Below, piece after piece: positions 5,844 through 12,524 of a DNA stretch of 41,250 bases. Source of the DNA: a virus. The translations under genes and the position numbers were made by a program. Numbering within the stretch: the first letter of the stretch is position 1; the number at the start of each line of letters is the position of its first letter. The stretch lies in the IMG/VR virus record IMGVR_UViG_3300047319_000760, positions 1-41,250 of that record; one strand, 5' to 3'. The notes below the pieces were generated by a model. It ran no database searches. It was given only the letters and a program-made list of their open reading frames with translations, and had not been told where the DNA came from.

Positions 5844-6058
5844 ATGAGGAGACGGGGGCTGTGGATATTCTGGCCATAGCGTCGGCGTCTCTATCGGAGG
5901 CTCGTCGGGCGCTTGATTGCGCGAGGATGTTGCAGGCTGGTCCGGCGGCTGAGTTACGATACCAGCTTGCGTTGGTTGAGGTTGGGTTGGCTGAGCGTGG
6001 CATGGCGGCGGCGCGTGATCTGGCGATTTCAATGGAGGCTAGAAGTCGTCCCGGCTGA
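5840..6058 (+). CDS. Early helical hypothetical protein
   Basis: A 72-residue Ala/Leu-rich helical protein beginning MNEETGAVDILAIASASLSE. The start overlaps the ribbon-helix-helix gene by ATGA. Its last 20 bases overlap the 3' end of the leftward NusG-like gene, so the two operons converge without a terminator. No domain is recognised. Confidence 0.7.
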   Translation: MNEETGAVDILAIASASLSEARRALDCARMLQAGPAAELRYQLALVEVGLAERGMAAARDLAISMEARSRPG

Positions 6059-6611
6059 CAAGTGCATCGAATGGGTAGGTGACTTCGCGGAGTTGTCCGA
6101 GGAACAACACCCCCACGGTGGCATTCTCGCCCTCCACTGCGAGCACGACCCCTGGCAGGCCCATGAGCGGCCCCACGCGAGGCGCCACAGCGTCGCCTGA
6201 TGCCCACCGGGCCTCTTTCCGCTGTTGGGTAGCGGCCAACGCCTCCACGCCGCGTAGCACGCTCACAGCGCTCTCTGGTAGTAGATACGGGTTTTGGCCT
6301 GCCATCATGAGGCGATTGACCCCGCGGGAGTGGGCGATGGGCGCCCAGGGCGATTGTATGCCCACGAACAGGTAGCTGGTGAACAGCGGCACGGCGATGC
6401 GGTGGGTCATGGTGCGGGTGACGCGGTCCATGCGCAGGACTGAGCGGGTGAGCAGCCAGACCTGGTAGCCTTGGCGGCGGAGGTTGAGTGCGGCCCAGTG
6501 CTCGGCTTGTGGGTGGGTGTGGACGACGCCCCAACGGCTACCGCACCCGAGGTCACCGACTGCGGGTTCGGGTGTAGCTACGCACTGTGGCTGGTTGGCG
6601 TCAAGCGGCAT
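6039..6611 (-). CDS. NusG/RfaH-like transcription antitermination protein
   Basis: A 190-residue protein with the two-domain layout of NusG. Residues about 26-122 match the NGN domain that binds RNA polymerase: WGVVHTHPQAEHWAALNLRR, then VPLFTSYLFVGI and the segment ending LPESAVSVLRG. Residues about 139-185 form a KOW domain: GDAVAPRVGPLMGLPGVV, then VGVLFLGQLREVTYPFDAL. Specialised paralogues such as RfaH and LoaP let polymerase pass terminators in particular operons. The gene follows a zinc-ribbon gene by overlap, downstream of the TGTCCGGC array. A phage role in late antitermination is a good inference; its target is not visible. Confidence 0.85.
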   Translation of the reverse strand: MPLDANQPQCVATPEPAVGDLGCGSRWGVVHTHPQAEHWAALNLRRQGYQVWLLTRSVLRMDRVTRTMTHRIAVPLFTSYLFVGIQSPWAPIAHSRGVNRLMMAGQNPYLLPESAVSVLRGVEALAATQQRKEARWASGDAVAPRVGPLMGLPGVVLAVEGENATVGVLFLGQLREVTYPFDALVSRDDF

Positions 6612-6813
6612 GAGGGCGATCGGGCTTTTCGGCGAGGGGCTTGGTGCGGAGGAGGACGTTGCGTCGGCCCTTGCCGCAGTTGGGGCACTGGAGCGTTCGG
6701 ATGTGAGCGATCCAGGTGGCGACGGGGCAGTTTGACGGCTGCCAGTCGTCCCACCAGTGGCCGCAGGCTTTGCATGCGCACCAGAGGGGCTCGAAGGTGG
6801 GGCGGTTGGTCAT
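6601..6813 (-). CDS. Zinc-ribbon protein
   Basis: A 70-residue protein with Cys pairs CACKAC (residues about 11-16) and CPNC, plus WWDDW between them; the pattern suggests a zinc ribbon with a flanking aromatic patch. The C terminus is basic. It overlaps the NusG-like gene by 11 bases. I use the ATG at 6813; GGAGGAGG lies 17 bases upstream, too far, so the true start could be slightly upstream. Its pairing with a NusG paralogue suggests a transcription-related partner. Confidence 0.7.
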   Translation of the reverse strand: MTNRPTFEPLWCACKACGHWWDDWQPSNCPVATWIAHIRTLQCPNCGKGRRNVLLRTKPLAEKPDRPHAA

Positions 6814-6855: not shown

Positions 6856-7102
6856 GCCGGACAATAATTCAAGCCGGACATAAATACTTCTGTCCGGCAT
6901 TTCTGTCCGGCCTGTTTCCGGCTGCTCACAAGGCGCAAAAACCCCAGGCAGTCTGCGGCTTTGCTGCAAATCATCTCGGGCATCCGGAGCCGGATGGAAT
7001 TCCCCCTTAAGGGGGGAATTACCATCCGTCCAGGCCGGACAATGCCGGGAATTATGTCCGGCCTATTTTTGTCCGGCATTCTGTCCGGCATTTCTGTCCG
7101 GC
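6856..7102. repeat. Iterated TGTCCGGC array (nine perfect copies)
   Basis: Perfect copies of TGTCCGGC lie at 6891, 6904, 7055, 7070, 7082 and 7095 on the plus strand, and as GCCGGACA at 6856, 6873 and 7034. A degenerate copy (TTTCCGGC) is at 6915. Neighbouring same-strand copies are 12-15 bases apart. The two clusters flank a large inverted repeat. The last copy touches the stop codon of the ATPase gene. This is how iteron origins or multi-site operators look; the leftward reading frame across it is a shadow. Confidence 0.88.
6992..7027. repeat. 36-bp near-perfect inverted repeat
   Basis: Arms GGATGGAATTCCCCC and GGGGGGAATTACCATCC flank a TTAA centre. Pairing is complete apart from two single-base bulges. 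No T tract follows on either strand, so it is not a standard terminator. Its place between the two TGTCCGGC clusters suggests a cruciform at an origin, or an RNA hairpin in the leader of the zinc-ribbon/NusG operon. Confidence 0.85.
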
Positions 7103-8623
7103 TCATGACACTACCTCTGGTTGCACGATCCAGACCCATTTGTCCCTGATGGCGACGGTTTCGAGGGTGAGTAGACGATCTGCGGCGCGCCTGAAGGACT
7201 TGAGTTTGGTGTCGGTTTTGTCGTCCTCGACGCAGGCGCGGGAGTAGAATTCGGTGCGCCAGCGCTCCTCACGAACGGCTGGCAGGTTGGCTGGAGCGAT
7301 GCCGTGCTGGCCTTCCATGACAATCAGGTCGGCGAGGATTTTACGGGCGATGAAGGTCTTTTCGTCATTGGCTGGCCGGCCGCGCCCGTTGGCATGACTA
7401 TGAGGCTTGGGCGCCTTGTCGGATGGGACGGCGAGCTTGATGAGCACGGGGTCGCCGTTTGTGAACGTCCATGACGGATGCGGGCATGGCTTCAGCTCGA
7501 AATGGATGGGCGCGAACGACATACCCCGTAGCTTGCCCTGCCAGTGGAGTGTCGTCACGTTTTGTTCGTCATCCGCCCAGAGCGTCAAATTGCCATCGAC
7601 CTCGTTGAGGAACGAGCCGCCGCCGCGTGGGAGCAGATTGGTTTCATCGGCATGTTTGGTGGGGTGGGTGGCGATGATGACGGCGGGTCGGCCTGGCATG
7701 GCAGGGAAGTGCTTTCGCAGCATTCTGGCCCACGTGATGGCGTTGGCATTGCTGTCCTCGTCGTCATCGAAGCGATATGCGGCCGACGTGTCGAGGACGA
7801 CCATAGCGGTTTCACCGCCGGCCGCGGCCATCTGGATGGCTTGCTCGGGCATGCTGGCGAGGTCGAAGGCGCCGGCCATCACGACCATATCCAGATTGCG
7901 GGGATCGATGCCCCAGTGTCGGCATGCGGTGTGGATCTTCTGCGCGAAGTCGGAGGGGTTTTCGCCGGCGAACCAGACCACGCGACCTGCCACGGTATGC
8001 TTCCCCGCCACCGGGCGCCCGCTGGCTACGCAGAGAGCGATATACAGCAACACGGCGGTTTTGCCATGCGATGTCAGCGCTGTGAGCGTGTAGAGGCTGG
8101 CACGCTGGATCAGCGGCTCGATGAGGTATTCCGGAGGCTTCTGCGCGCTGATGAAGGCGCTGACGGATTGCGCCCACGGCACGCCGGTATCGTCACGGGC
8201 CTGCTGTTTCTGCTCAACCGCTGTGATGAAGTCGTGGTGCGCCTTTTTCCATTCAGCGACAACGTCGTTGCGCAGGTTGGTGTGGCGCGCGAGTTTGCCG
8301 CCGCAAATAGCGATCGTCATTGAGATTTGCTCAGGGATGATCGCCCGGTCTTTCCCGGCCCGGTAGAACGCCCCAACGATTTCGGTCAGCGTTGGGATAG
8401 GATCGACGGCCGCGCCGTTGATGAAGTCGATGATGTGGGGATGTTCCTTGCAGAGCGTGTCCCACACCGCGCCAAACTCAGTGGCCTCGCGCGGATCTTC
8501 GAGGGGGGGGATCTCCTCCTCAATGGGCTCTCCAGGCTGCCGAATGCGATACTGTGACATGTAGCTACGAACATTTGGCCCCAGGTTGTTCCACTCGTCG
8601 TCGTGGCCGTTACCGTTCTTCAT
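7103..8623 (-). CDS. RepA-type AAA ATPase (putative replicative helicase)
   Basis: A 506-residue protein with a RecA-like ATPase core. Walker A is ALTSHGKTA around residues 182-190 (Lys188), Walker B is MVVLDTSAAY near 271, followed by a sensor-like IIATHPTK. The C-terminal part (NDEKTFIARKILADLIV and on) looks like a winged helix. This is the plan of RepA/AAA_25 helicases of plasmids and phages. I chose the ATG at 8623, which follows GGAGG. No primase or DNA polymerase is present, so it would recruit host enzymes. The gene ends exactly at the TGTCCGGC array. Confidence 0.82.
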   Translation of the reverse strand: MKNGNGHDDEWNNLGPNVRSYMSQYRIRQPGEPIEEEIPPLEDPREATEFGAVWDTLCKEHPHIIDFINGAAVDPIPTLTEIVGAFYRAGKDRAIIPEQISMTIAICGGKLARHTNLRNDVVAEWKKAHHDFITAVEQKQQARDDTGVPWAQSVSAFISAQKPPEYLIEPLIQRASLYTLTALTSHGKTAVLLYIALCVASGRPVAGKHTVAGRVVWFAGENPSDFAQKIHTACRHWGIDPRNLDMVVMAGAFDLASMPEQAIQMAAAGGETAMVVLDTSAAYRFDDDEDSNANAITWARMLRKHFPAMPGRPAVIIATHPTKHADETNLLPRGGGSFLNEVDGNLTLWADDEQNVTTLHWQGKLRGMSFAPIHFELKPCPHPSWTFTNGDPVLIKLAVPSDKAPKPHSHANGRGRPANDEKTFIARKILADLIVMEGQHGIAPANLPAVREERWRTEFYSRACVEDDKTDTKLKSFRRAADRLLTLETVAIRDKWVWIVQPEVVS

Positions 8624-8840
8624 GGCACTGCACCTCCGTTTCGAGTTGGTGCAGTTGGCGCATGGCTGAGACGGTGGCATCCGCCTCGGCTGCCAGGTCG
8701 GAGGCTGGTAGGGCGCGTTGCAGGCGTCGCCATGAGCGCAGCATGCGCTGGCGATCGCGGATGAATGTGGTGAGGCATGGGCACAGCTCCGTTGACGCGG
8801 CCGGGGAGCTATGCAAAATGAGCCCTGTCAGGTTGCTCAT
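8610..8840 (-). CDS. Small coiled-coil-like hypothetical protein
   Basis: A 76-residue protein, MSNLTGLILHSSPAAS onward, with a helical Arg/Leu-rich middle and an acidic heptad-like C terminus. Its end overlaps the start of the ATPase gene by 14 bases, suggesting coupled translation and perhaps a loader or partner. No domain is recognised and the start has only a weak ribosome site. Confidence 0.55.
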   Translation of the reverse strand: MSNLTGLILHSSPAASTELCPCLTTFIRDRQRMLRSWRRLQRALPASDLAAEADATVSAMRQLHQLETEVQCHEER

Positions 8841-9241: not shown

Positions 9242-10054
9242 CTATGCCGCCTTGGCCGACACCGCACTCGTCGGCGCAGCGCTGACCGGCACGCGGCCGT
9301 TCGGGGCATACACCTCCTGAATGATCGCACACACCGCCCGCGGCATACTGCCGCCGAACGCTTCCCGTGACGCCTTGGCAGCACCCAGCAACCGGCCAGG
9401 GGTGAACTTGCGCGCCAGCTTCTTGGCCACCCGGTCAGGCTTGACCAGTTCAGGTTGCGCCAGAAACAACGCCACGCCACGCATCAGCGGCGCATCAAAC
9501 CCGGCACTGTCCATCCCCCATGTGTCTTTGATGAAAGCCAACACGTCGCCCAGCATGTCAGAGCCGTATTGCTTATAGATTGACAGCAACGCATACACCG
9601 CGCGGACGCACCCGTCTGCCTGCGCATTCTGTACCTTGAGCCCAGCACATTCGACAACGTCCGATACGGCGCACTCTGCCTCATAACCGGCCGTCACCCC
9701 GACCTTGAACATATCCAATGCCGTGGGTTTGCTACGCCCCCCATTCATCCCATAAAAAACCCGTGCGCTTTCAGCGGCTGTGCCGGCTGTGACAACGACG
9801 CACGGGATGCGTTCATTATCTCCGAACTTCATCCTGACCGCGCTGGCTCGCGTCCATCCGTCGTCAACATGGTACTTGCCATCCGGCAACGCACTCACTG
9901 TGACCGTACCAAACAGATCCGGGTTAAAGGCGGCAGCGATCTGCTTCGCCTTGTATTCCGCAAGATCGCGTTGCGCCTCAGGCCACGCCACGGTCAGGTC
10001 ACCAACCCGCAGCCACTTCATGGTGTGTTCTTTAGAAGATAGTGTCTTGGTCAT
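9242..10054 (-). CDS. ParB-like N-terminal-domain protein, second copy
   Basis: A 270-residue protein whose first half has the ParB/sulfiredoxin fold: YKAKQIAAAFNPDLFGTVTV, then DGKYHVDDGWTRASAVRMKF, the position of the GxxR-like loop. It resembles the phage DUF6551 group. The second half is helical and basic. Its start overlaps the upstream ParB-like gene by ATGA. Tandem ParB-like proteins could serve partition, replication control or CTP-dependent DNA clamping; no ParA is found. In ParB the loop carries Arg residues that bind CTP; here only TRAS is seen. Confidence 0.75.
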   Translation of the reverse strand: MTKTLSSKEHTMKWLRVGDLTVAWPEAQRDLAEYKAKQIAAAFNPDLFGTVTVSALPDGKYHVDDGWTRASAVRMKFGDNERIPCVVVTAGTAAESARVFYGMNGGRSKPTALDMFKVGVTAGYEAECAVSDVVECAGLKVQNAQADGCVRAVYALLSIYKQYGSDMLGDVLAFIKDTWGMDSAGFDAPLMRGVALFLAQPELVKPDRVAKKLARKFTPGRLLGAAKASREAFGGSMPRAVCAIIQEVYAPNGRVPVSAAPTSAVSAKAA

Positions 10055-11154
10055 CGGTGCATTTCCTCGATCCTGGTGATCAGCACACGAACACTTTCAA
10101 TCGCATCACGTAACTCCGACAGCACGTCTTTGGCGTGCTGCGGCGATAGATGCGGTACTTCGATTTTCCCGCCGTTCAGACACGACTGGATCAGTATCCC
10201 GATACCGTGCTCGAAACGCTCGGTTCGGTTGTTTTCGCGCGCAGTTCGTGAATTACCCTTACGATCGCCCCACAGCCGCCGCATGATCGGCGCGATGGTC
10301 TGGCAAATCGCTTCAAGCGGAACGCTCTGTTCGTTCATCGCAGCGAGCGCTGCCGCGGCAATCGACGTATCATGCAGCGATAGGTCGCCCCGATCGGCGA
10401 TCAGCACTATGTCCATCATCTGTCGGCAACGGTGGCGGCGTATGCCAAGCGCATCCGCGACCCGGTCGGCAGATTTCATCTCTTGATACAACGCGATCGC
10501 CTTGCGGGCGACGAACTCCGGAGACTGCCCATCAGGCAGTTTGGGGGGGCACCGTCTCGACTGCGGGAACGGGATGATTGTCGCCGGCTGCACAGGACGC
10601 CGCTTCTCCCTCTCCCGCTGCCAGATACCAAAGACGGTGCGCGAAACCTTGGCGTCGCCCGATCTCACGGCTTCTATCTCCTGTTCGGTGCCACGCTGCC
10701 AGATGGTCTTCGCCCGAATAACCAGGGCACGGCTTACACCCAGCATCTTGGCGGCCTGATCTGCGGTTACATTTGGACCATCGGATATTTGTATCCGATG
10801 GTCTGACATGCGGTCGCCGCCAACCTCTGCAGTCGCAATCTGGCATGCAATCATCGCCCGCTGGCTCAGGTTCAGATGCCGCCGGTGCAGGTTCTTCGAC
10901 ACCACAAAATCCAGCGGCGTGCCAATCCCATCCCATTCCTCGGTTATCGGTGTGTGGCCGAGTTTCTGTGCGGCAAGCCACCGATTGCGTCCGTCGAGAA
11001 TGCTGCCATTCAGCAGCACGATGGCGTCACGTTGCCCGTTCTTTCTGATGTCATCAGCCAACGCAGCGAGATCAGCCTCGCCCATCAACGGGAAGACATC
11101 AGCCGCCGGATGCGACCGAAGATCGTTCGACAGTACGGACGCCGGTTGCGCCAT
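10051..11154 (-). CDS. ParB-like protein with HTH
   Basis: A 367-residue protein. Residues about 14-110 form a ParB N-terminal domain: HPAADVFPLMGEADLAALAD, GSILDGRNRWLAAQKLG and SKNLHRRHLNLSQRAMIA. An HTH follows at about 151-175 (TADQAAKMLGVSRALVIRAKTI). The C-terminal half is helical. This is a fuller ParB arrangement than its downstream neighbour and might bind a centromere-like site or act as a transcription regulator. The ribosome site is a run of nine G residues seven bases before the ATG. No ParA partner is seen. Confidence 0.82.
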   Translation of the reverse strand: MAQPASVLSNDLRSHPAADVFPLMGEADLAALADDIRKNGQRDAIVLLNGSILDGRNRWLAAQKLGHTPITEEWDGIGTPLDFVVSKNLHRRHLNLSQRAMIACQIATAEVGGDRMSDHRIQISDGPNVTADQAAKMLGVSRALVIRAKTIWQRGTEQEIEAVRSGDAKVSRTVFGIWQREREKRRPVQPATIIPFPQSRRCPPKLPDGQSPEFVARKAIALYQEMKSADRVADALGIRRHRCRQMMDIVLIADRGDLSLHDTSIAAAALAAMNEQSVPLEAICQTIAPIMRRLWGDRKGNSRTARENNRTERFEHGIGILIQSCLNGGKIEVPHLSPQHAKDVLSELRDAIESVRVLITRIEEMHR

Positions 11155-11169
11155 ATTCTTTCCCCCCCC

Positions 11170-11274
11170 CTATCGGATTGCCCCACTGCCGAATGCCATC
11201 ACGATCGCCCAAGTCGCGCCGAACGCCAGCGCCCACGACAGCAGCGTGATCAACGTGGCGCGGAGCAACGACAT
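11170..11274 (-). CDS. 34-residue membrane peptide
   Basis: The frame encodes MSLLRATLITLLSWALAFGA and continues hydrophobic to a short end GSGAIR. Its ATG directly follows the stop of the nuclease gene (TAGATG) and its stop is at the start of the G9 tract before the ParB-like gene. The tight packing is the main evidence. It may anchor or regulate, or only couple translation. Confidence 0.5.
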   Translation of the reverse strand: MSLLRATLITLLSWALAFGATWAIVMAFGSGAIR

Positions 11275-11733
11275 CTAAGCTGCAACTCTGCCACGAAGAG
11301 GCACGCCGGCCGCAGCCACCGCATCGAGCGCCTCGGGCACGGAGCGGACGACAGCGACCGGGAAGCCGGCATCCGCGAGCCGGGGGTGCAGCGCCTTCTG
11401 CGCCGGCGAGAGCTGCCCGCCGCGGCTGCGCTTCAGCTCCAACAACACGAGGCGGCCGCGCCAGAACACGCCCATATCCGGCCAACCCGCCAGGCAGCCG
11501 AGCCGCTTCTTGCGGCCGCCCTCGATCGCGGAGCGGGCATTGGACAAGTCCCAGGCGGTGATGATGCAGTCCGACGGCGCCAGATAGGCCAGGGCACTGT
11601 TCACCGAGGCACCCAGTTCGTCCTCCGCGGCGATCGGGGCGGTGAGCCGGAACTTGGCCGGCACCGACACGCGGACGCCCGCGGCGCCGCCAGAGACGCG
11701 CATGGAACGGGGGTCATCGCCGGGGGCGGTCAC
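11275..11733 (-). CDS. VRR-NUC domain nuclease
   Basis: A 152-residue protein with a PD-(D/E)XK core of VRR-NUC type: GWPDMGVFWRG, LVLLELKR, then GGQLSPAQKALHPRLADAG and a Val-rich strand. Likely metal ligands are Asp86, Glu99 and Lys101. Phage VRR-NUC enzymes act on branched DNA such as Holliday junctions and flaps. It overlaps the Cro-like gene by four bases and is the second gene of the leftward replication operon. With the ERF protein at 14618 it would supply recombination. Confidence 0.85.
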   Translation of the reverse strand: MTAPGDDPRSMRVSGGAAGVRVSVPAKFRLTAPIAAEDELGASVNSALAYLAPSDCIITAWDLSNARSAIEGGRKKRLGCLAGWPDMGVFWRGRLVLLELKRSRGGQLSPAQKALHPRLADAGFPVAVVRSVPEALDAVAAAGVPLRGRVAA

Positions 11734-11966
11734 TCGGCCGCCATCCGCTGGCGCACCGGGAACAGGTCAGGCCGCAGCCGCCGCTTCGAGATGCCTGTGA
11801 TCCGCGCCACGATAGCAACATGCCGCTCCGGCACCCGGCGCCACTGGCTGACCGCCGCCCTGGACACGCCAAGGGCCTCCGCGATCTCGGTGACCGCCAG
11901 ACGGGGGCTTAGAGCCAACTCCAGAGCCGCATCACGCTCCGGGCGCGGAGGAGGGCGGTATGCCAT
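11730..11966 (-). CDS. Cro-like helix-turn-helix regulator
   Basis: A 78-residue basic protein with an HTH: VTEIAEALGVSRAAVSQWRR, then VPERHVAIVARITGISKRRL. The latter segment, with R-P-D-L-F-P after it, is typical of YdaS/Cro-like antirepressors. It is divergent from the XRE repressor at 12090, the classical switch arrangement, and heads the leftward replication operon. An 8-bp inverted repeat overlaps its start codon. Confidence 0.82.
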   Translation of the reverse strand: MAYRPPPRPERDAALELALSPRLAVTEIAEALGVSRAAVSQWRRVPERHVAIVARITGISKRRLRPDLFPVRQRMAAE

Positions 11967-11998
11967 GCGCCACCTTACTTAACCCGTGCGTGGCATAC
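11958..11998. promoter_or_regulatory. Candidate switch operator (inverted repeat)
   Basis: GTATGCCA at 11958-11965 and TGGCATAC at 11991-11998 are exact inverted copies 25 bases apart. They span the start of the Cro-like gene within the divergent control region, where repressor and Cro should bind. Promoter boxes here are weak and not called. Confidence 0.5.
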
Positions 11999-12089
11999 AA
12001 GGCTGTGATTGGGTTGCGAAGCGGGCCTTAACTCCGGTAAGCTTGTGGCCTATCTAGCATGCTGCCCAGCACGACTCCGAGGTGGACCC

Positions 12090-12524
12090 GTGGAAAAAGA
12101 CGTTGGTGATCGACTGCGTGAAATCCGTGAGCGCCAGGGCATGAAGCAAAGCGAACTGGCCGCCAAGCTTGGCGTTCACGTCATGACCGTGACCCTGTGG
12201 GAGAACGTGAAGGCACGCCGCAAAGTCGCCGCCAAGTATCTACCACGGATCGCGCAAATCCTGAATATCCGTGTAGCTGAGCTGCTCGGAGAAGAAGGCA
12301 CTCTTGAGCAGACAACACGCGATCCGCTGCCGATCATGACCCAGAGTTCGGCCGAGGTTCAGTTGCTATGGATGTACCGGCTAATGTCGGAGAAACTCCA
12401 GTTGTGGCAGTTGGCGCAGTTCATCGAGTGTGTGAACGGCGGCAAGCCGCGTTATGCGCCTGGCCATGAGCCGAGCATCGATAGTGCCGCCATGCAGAGC
12501 ACCATACTGGGCTTCGGTCGCTAA
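12090..12524 (+). CDS. XRE-family repressor (CI-like)
   Basis: A 144-residue protein with an N-terminal XRE HTH: VGDRLREIRERQGMKQSELA, AKLGVHVMTVTLWEN, then AAKYLPRIAQILNI. The C-terminal part is helical and lacks a recognisable LexA-type protease domain, so induction would not follow the standard RecA route. The GTG start at 12090 follows GAGGTGG at good spacing; the upstream in-frame ATG has none. It is divergent from the Cro-like gene. Confidence 0.82.
   Translation: MEKDVGDRLREIRERQGMKQSELAAKLGVHVMTVTLWENVKARRKVAAKYLPRIAQILNIRVAELLGEEGTLEQTTRDPLPIMTQSSAEVQLLWMYRLMSEKLQLWQLAQFIECVNGGKPRYAPGHEPSIDSAAMQSTILGFGR

Follow-up and report, generated by a model that had tools for sequence, protein, structure and literature searches.

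Organization of the locus

The window, meaning the whole stretch of DNA analysed here, is a 41,250-base phage record of IMG/VR in which an SU10-type portal gene is present. Nine exact GCCGGACA/TGTCCGGC boxes lie at positions 6856-7102, in two clusters of mixed orientation with a hairpin between them, within a 289-bp gap that has a RepA-type helicase/ATPase gene on one side and zinc-ribbon/NusG genes on the other. The first-pass annotation had described nine boxes around a cruciform-capable inverted repeat, placed after the ATPase gene and before the zinc-ribbon/NusG genes, and this description holds: all nine exact copies were located, together with one degenerate copy. It had also seen no room for a gene, and the array is indeed intergenic, because the last box directly adjoins the stop of the ATPase gene and the next gene is the zinc-ribbon ORF. 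The features are as follows.

6039-6611, minus strand: NusG-family protein, a neighbour only (Pfam NusG 3.8e-11, PHROG antiterminator; position not conserved)
6601-6813, minus strand: zinc-ribbon ORF, 70 aa, accessory (unmatched in the relatives searched)
6856-6863, minus strand: box 9, inverted (kept in relatives L003, L020 and L071)
6873-6880, minus strand: box 8, inverted (kept in L003, L020 and L071)
6891-6898, plus strand: box 7, TGTCCGGC (kept in L003, L020 and L071)
6904-6911, plus strand: box 6, TGTCCGGC (kept in L003, L020 and L071)
6915-6922, plus strand: degenerate tenth box, TTTCCGGC
6991-7028, no strand: hairpin/inverted repeat between the clusters (arms 6991-7006 and 7013-7028)
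7034-7041, minus strand: box 5, inverted (the sole box degraded in L071)
7055-7062, plus strand: box 4, TGTCCGGC (kept in L003, L020 and L071)
7070-7077, plus strand: box 3, TGTCCGGC (kept in L003, L020 and L071)
7082-7089, plus strand: box 2, TGTCCGGC (kept in L003, L020 and L071)
7095-7102, plus strand: box 1, TGTCCGGC, ATPase-side cluster (kept in L003, L020 and L071)
7103-8680, minus strand: RepA-type (RecA-fold, AAA_25) replicative helicase/ATPase, 525 aa, proposed initiator (Pfam AAA_25 4.7e-18)
7103-7375, minus strand: C-terminal winged-helix-like domain of the ATPase, residues about 436-525, proposed box reader (AF2 model)
7166-7210, minus strand: proposed recognition helix TKLKSFRRAADRLL, residues 491-505 (aligned to the relatives' KWRVQ, and AF2 model)

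Read on the minus strand, the first cluster comprises four boxes in direct orientation, at steps of 13, 12 and 15 bp, and then a single inverted box; the second comprises a direct pair with a step of 13 bp and then two inverted boxes. The spacers between direct boxes are A/T-rich, and the switch of orientation noted earlier between clusters is thus seen within them as well. Only 4 exact copies of the box occur in the remaining 41 kb. The 7-bp core CCGGACA has 19 copies in the window, whereas shuffles have 7.7 +/- 2.7 and none of 100 reached 19; the cluster score of the boxes was -log10P = 16.3. As single-stranded DNA, the segment 6980-7040 has a predicted fold of -22.8 kcal/mol (z = -7.2). The array gave no match to Rfam families and no sigma-70-like promoter, and the single terminator-like match found in it was at shuffle expectation. 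GC skew, which had been put forward as a check for an origin, gave no clear signal, with no clean switch at the array and with the skew confounded by gene strand.

The ATPase and its C-terminal domain

The window ATPase has PHROG matches to DNA polymerase/primase and helicase-primase, its family profile matches RSF1010 RepA, and AAA_25 is its only Pfam match, no primase domain being recognised. The model of the relative L074 has a fold match to RSF1010 RepA (1olo/1nlf), the profile match is to 1g8y, and the ATPase is predicted to be a RecA-fold, putatively hexameric helicase of the RSF1010 RepA type. N-terminal primase-like fusions differ among the helicases of relatives, with a Prim-Pol in L088 and weak Toprim matches in L072 and L106. 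No relatives of L074 were found in plasmids.

The C-terminal 80 or so residues of L074 form a predicted winged helix with pLDDT of about 90 (helices 287-310, 316-323 and 334-346, then strands), and the segment KWRVQ, residues 334-338, lies at the start of the recognition helix in this confident prediction. In the window the C-terminal domain was modelled by AF2 at low confidence, with helices at 438-459, 463-482 and 491-505. The tripeptide RWR occurs both in the window (ERWRTEF) and in L089 (SRWRMQ), which both have CCGGACA boxes; a common code was considered and rejected, the match being taken as coincidence because alignment and model put the window RWR in helix 2 and the recognition helix at TKLKSFRR.

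Conservation of the array in relatives

Absence of the boxes from relatives with the same genes had been named beforehand as the result that would speak against a function, and the outcome favoured the array. In L003 and L020 the box cores are identical to those of the window in 63 of 63 letters. L071, whose ATPase is 73% identical, keeps 8 of the 9 boxes at the same spacing next to a different adjoining gene; 60 of 63 box letters but 107 of 184 linker letters are identical between it and the window (Fisher p = 5.5e-9), and in these alignments the boxes are preferentially conserved over the linkers. The hairpin of L071 lies in the same place with an altered stem sequence and retained complementarity. 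The array is also kept in the close relatives L003, L004 and L020, from which the zinc-ribbon gene is absent, so that NusG directly follows the array there.

ATPase homologues were drawn more widely from viral contigs and bacterial genomes, the genome matches being mostly of Rhizobiales and many homologues just 20-40% identical to the window ATPase. For 46 of the 53 loci, no short-repeat array anywhere in the locus is stronger than one that starts between -100 and +1000 bp from the ATPase stop, sometimes past a small inserted gene, and across about 100 loci the array, as detected by sequence, accompanies the ATPase gene. The genes downstream of the array vary among relatives and the ATPase is constant. 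The repeat word differs by lineage, with CCGGACA, TCAGACA, CGTAGCA, CGTATCA, CGTTCCA, CGTAACA, CGTACCG and TGAACCA among others. No such array was found at the 3' end of the helicase gene in Gordonia, Corynebacterium and Caulobacter phages whose RepA-like helicases are distant. In L077, L078, L081, L090 and L092 the array lies about +490 to +830 from the ATPase stop, apparently behind an inserted gene, and the word still tends to match the helix. A NusG paralogue recurs downstream of the array at varying distance (6039-6611 in the window, and in L075, L082, L108 and L071), which suggests a loosely linked early-region gene.

A gap of 41-47 bp between sites was present in 33 of 48 arrays versus 19 expected, and in many relatives it holds an AT-rich stretch (mean AT 0.60, compared with 0.40 in the loci), the pattern that an unwinding element would show. 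In the window the inter-cluster gap has an AT of 0.45 and is filled by the hairpin, and the AT-rich gap of relatives is not clear there. Hairpins exceeded chance (p <= 1/30) in 34 of the 48 arrays, an excess to which pairing between inverted iterons contributes.

Co-variation of repeat word and recognition helix

A partial Mantel scan of 48 loci was run over 431 five-residue windows of the ATPase alignment, with whole-protein distance controlled and with no preselection of windows. The best predictor of the repeat word was KWRVQ (partial r = 0.32 versus a mean of 0.02 and sd of 0.07; 0 of 2000 permutations). A second and weaker peak, SHPVK near the ATPase core (r = 0.28), is probably residual clade structure.

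A rule was fixed before new loci were fetched. Within the frame K/R-X-R/K-V and the word CGTA[N]C, it assigns G to X = W or Y, T to A, I, P or G, C to R or K, A to Q, and the word CGTTC to S. The blind test covered 33 new loci, after removal of redundancy at 90% identity, and the rule was right for 23 of them (mean of shuffles 11.3, highest 22 in 20,000). The scoring script was looser than the rule (any residue before X, V/A/I/T after it, X = S scored on two bases), and the effective number is below 33, since L263 is practically the same as a training locus and several of the others resemble one another in kind. The 10 misses were in part weak arrays and in part strong ones (L169, L159 and L177). 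The array was not detectable in seven further new loci, and none was detected near the ATPase in L217 and L204 (helices NKQRVQ and NKQKVD), for which the rule predicts CGTAAC.

When training and new loci were tabulated together, restricted to loci with words in the GT..C frame, so that the values are conditional counts and not an error rate, A/G/I/P went with T in 17 of 17, W/Y with G in 5 of 5, R/K with C in 8 of 8, Q/M with A in 4 of 4 (M being absent from the prior rule and added later), and S with T followed by C, T or G in 15 of 16. Phylogeny was controlled for with a tree from which the winged helix had been left out: of 16 path-disjoint pairs with different X, 14 also have different words, and of 16 same-X pairs, 11 share the word (Fisher p = 0.003). 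The two sharpest pairs of relatives, each 93% identical overall, differ in both: L079 and L094 (W with CGTAGC, A with CGTATC), and L080 and L083 (S with CGTTCC, Q with CGTAAC). These comparisons suggest that a change of one residue in the helicase is accompanied by a change of one base pair in the repeats, and the pairings appear chemically sensible, with Arg opposite the G of a C-G pair, Gln with A, and small or hydrophobic residues with T. The recognition helix of the window, TKLKSFRRA, falls outside the readable K-X-R/K-V frame, and the code therefore cannot predict the window's own box.

We lean, with some reserve, towards the view that this large phage family, many of whose members are phages of Alphaproteobacteria, has self-specifying origins in which the C-terminal recognition helix of a RecA-fold RepA-type helicase reads that protein's own iterons by a near one-residue-to-one-base-pair code. 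If the code is true, origin specificity would be switchable, between relatives 93% identical, through one or two residues and matching changes of the repeats.

A probable helicase-read replication origin

Multiple short repeats cluster at the helicase gene, directly 3' of the ATPase. The linkage of the array to the ATPase in about 100 loci, the co-variation of word and helix and a layout like that of known helicase-read origins together make it likely, in our judgement, that 6856-7102 is the iteron-type replication origin of the phage, or its cis-required core, read by the helicase. For the window itself the proposed assignment draws on position, on the constraint on the boxes and on family resemblance. 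Three readings had been offered at the first stage, namely an origin, an operator of the zinc-ribbon/NusG operon and an ops-like element for NusG; the first is the best supported, and the other two are disfavoured below.

We infer that the helicase would bind the GCCGGACA boxes via its own C-terminal winged-helix domain and that the segment has origin activity. Helicase rings would assemble on the oppositely oriented box clusters, the DNA between the clusters would be melted, and replication would begin there. As a guess, the hairpin may act in priming or loading.

Comparison with known systems

The helicase alpha of phage P4 is of superfamily SF3. It has a bacterial-type Toprim primase, whereas the window protein is a RecA-fold RepA-like helicase with AAA_25 only and no primase found. 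The P4 annotation places crr, described there as required in cis for replication and holding 8-bp type 1 repeats that face both ways, 46 bp behind the stop of alpha; the array detector used here finds it 52 bp past that stop. The window resembles it in having repeats directly 3' of the helicase gene and in both orientations, and the type 1 repeat TGTTCACC (P4 = L298, 4291-4590) has the general GT-N-N-C shape of the words of these phages. Alpha binds the origin repeats through a C-terminal winged helix (PMC4234260), which resembles the proposal made here, the corresponding domain being confident in the relative L074 and a low-confidence model in the window.

The C-terminal domain of SaPI Rep recognises iterons that lie immediately behind the gene for Rep, and SCCmec Cch2 uses a C-terminal region to bind direct repeats located downstream of the gene that encodes it, with inverted repeats nearby (PMC7581432). 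The SaPI Rep/ori system is of another helicase class and other hosts than ours, and is likened to it by layout. Cch2, with a putative origin, is a staphylococcal D5/MCM-like 3'-5' helicase with three iterons only, unlike the present one. Among solved structures, the RepA of RSF1010 (IncQ) comes closest to the ATPase (1g8y/1olo/1nlf), and the oriV of that plasmid has iterons plus ssi hairpins (PMC4234260); there a separate RepC reads the iterons, whereas here the helicase chain itself is predicted to carry the winged helix. ORF904 of pRN1 has a winged helix at its C-terminus, and a stem-loop that is essential lies downstream of this replication gene (PMC4234260), but this is an archaeal plasmid with an SF3 helicase and a prim-pol, and the stem-loop is without iterons. 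In the PrimQH and All3500 primase families, as far as the accessible part of the source goes, RepA-type helicase domains are fused to primases, in PrimQH with a winged helix, and winged-helix origin recognition is suggested for PolpTN2 only (PMC5862659); that part, within the openly available literature, mentions no iterons or recognition code.

Helicases that read iterons behind their own gene are already known (P4, SaPI, SCCmec). If our reading is true, the design extends to the RepA-type helicases of many environmental phages, natural variation yields a readable protein-DNA code in which the origin word is often predictable from one residue, origins could be found in phage genomes that lack annotation, and single-residue swaps would put the evolution of origin specificity directly to the test. 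In PLE, altered iterons and replication modules allow satellites to evade a phage nuclease mimicking the initiator (PMC8263062), and by this precedent the fast diversification of words could reflect replicon conflict.

Alternative functions of the array

It is also conceivable, though we hold it improbable, that the ATPase winged helix binds the boxes for regulation or copy control (autoregulation, incompatibility or a replication terminator) and that the true origin lies elsewhere. The co-variation of word and helix equally fits any function of helicase binding, and in P4 the same repeats also occur in a separate ori1 at a distance of 4.8 kb; on the other hand, the site lies 3' of the gene and not at a promoter, AT-rich gaps and hairpins recur in the relatives' arrays, and no second array with the same core stands out in the window.

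That the array is an operator of the downstream operon, with the zinc-ribbon protein, a CI-like repressor (12009-12524) or some other regulator bound to it, is very unlikely. The array does lie upstream of the zinc-ribbon/NusG operon on the same strand, and several boxes could make an operator, but the zinc-ribbon gene is missing beside the array in L003, L004 and L020, a different gene adjoins it in L071, the ATPase stays constant while the downstream genes vary, a sigma-70-like promoter was not found, and the repeat word follows the ATPase helix. Two ParB-like genes upstream (9242-11154) might suggest a partition (centromere) site, which we regard as more improbable still, since the ATPase helix predicts the word variation and no ParA/ParB pair was identified adjoining the array. 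The NusG paralogue is encoded not far from the array in the window and in some relatives, but an ops-like pausing or recruitment element for it is scarcely credible given that the loci of most arrays contain no match to NusG, that the boxes stand in both orientations and that word changes track the ATPase.

Other repeats

In L071, dense CTCGCTC repeats at 11041-12079 are distant from the ATPase and unrelated to the iterons. Most of what a scan of the collection for three consecutive GCCGGACA brought up was coding sequence with in-frame 15-bp repeats, or other repeats without relation to the array. The contig L019/L065 (G003), which has a Mu-type transposase, carries at one end (312-441) three GCCGGACA boxes, with GAAA as spacer, together with one box in inverted orientation; considered as a related site, this Mu-like contig was set aside as probably unrelated, and its boxes are possibly transposase end sites that share the word by coincidence.
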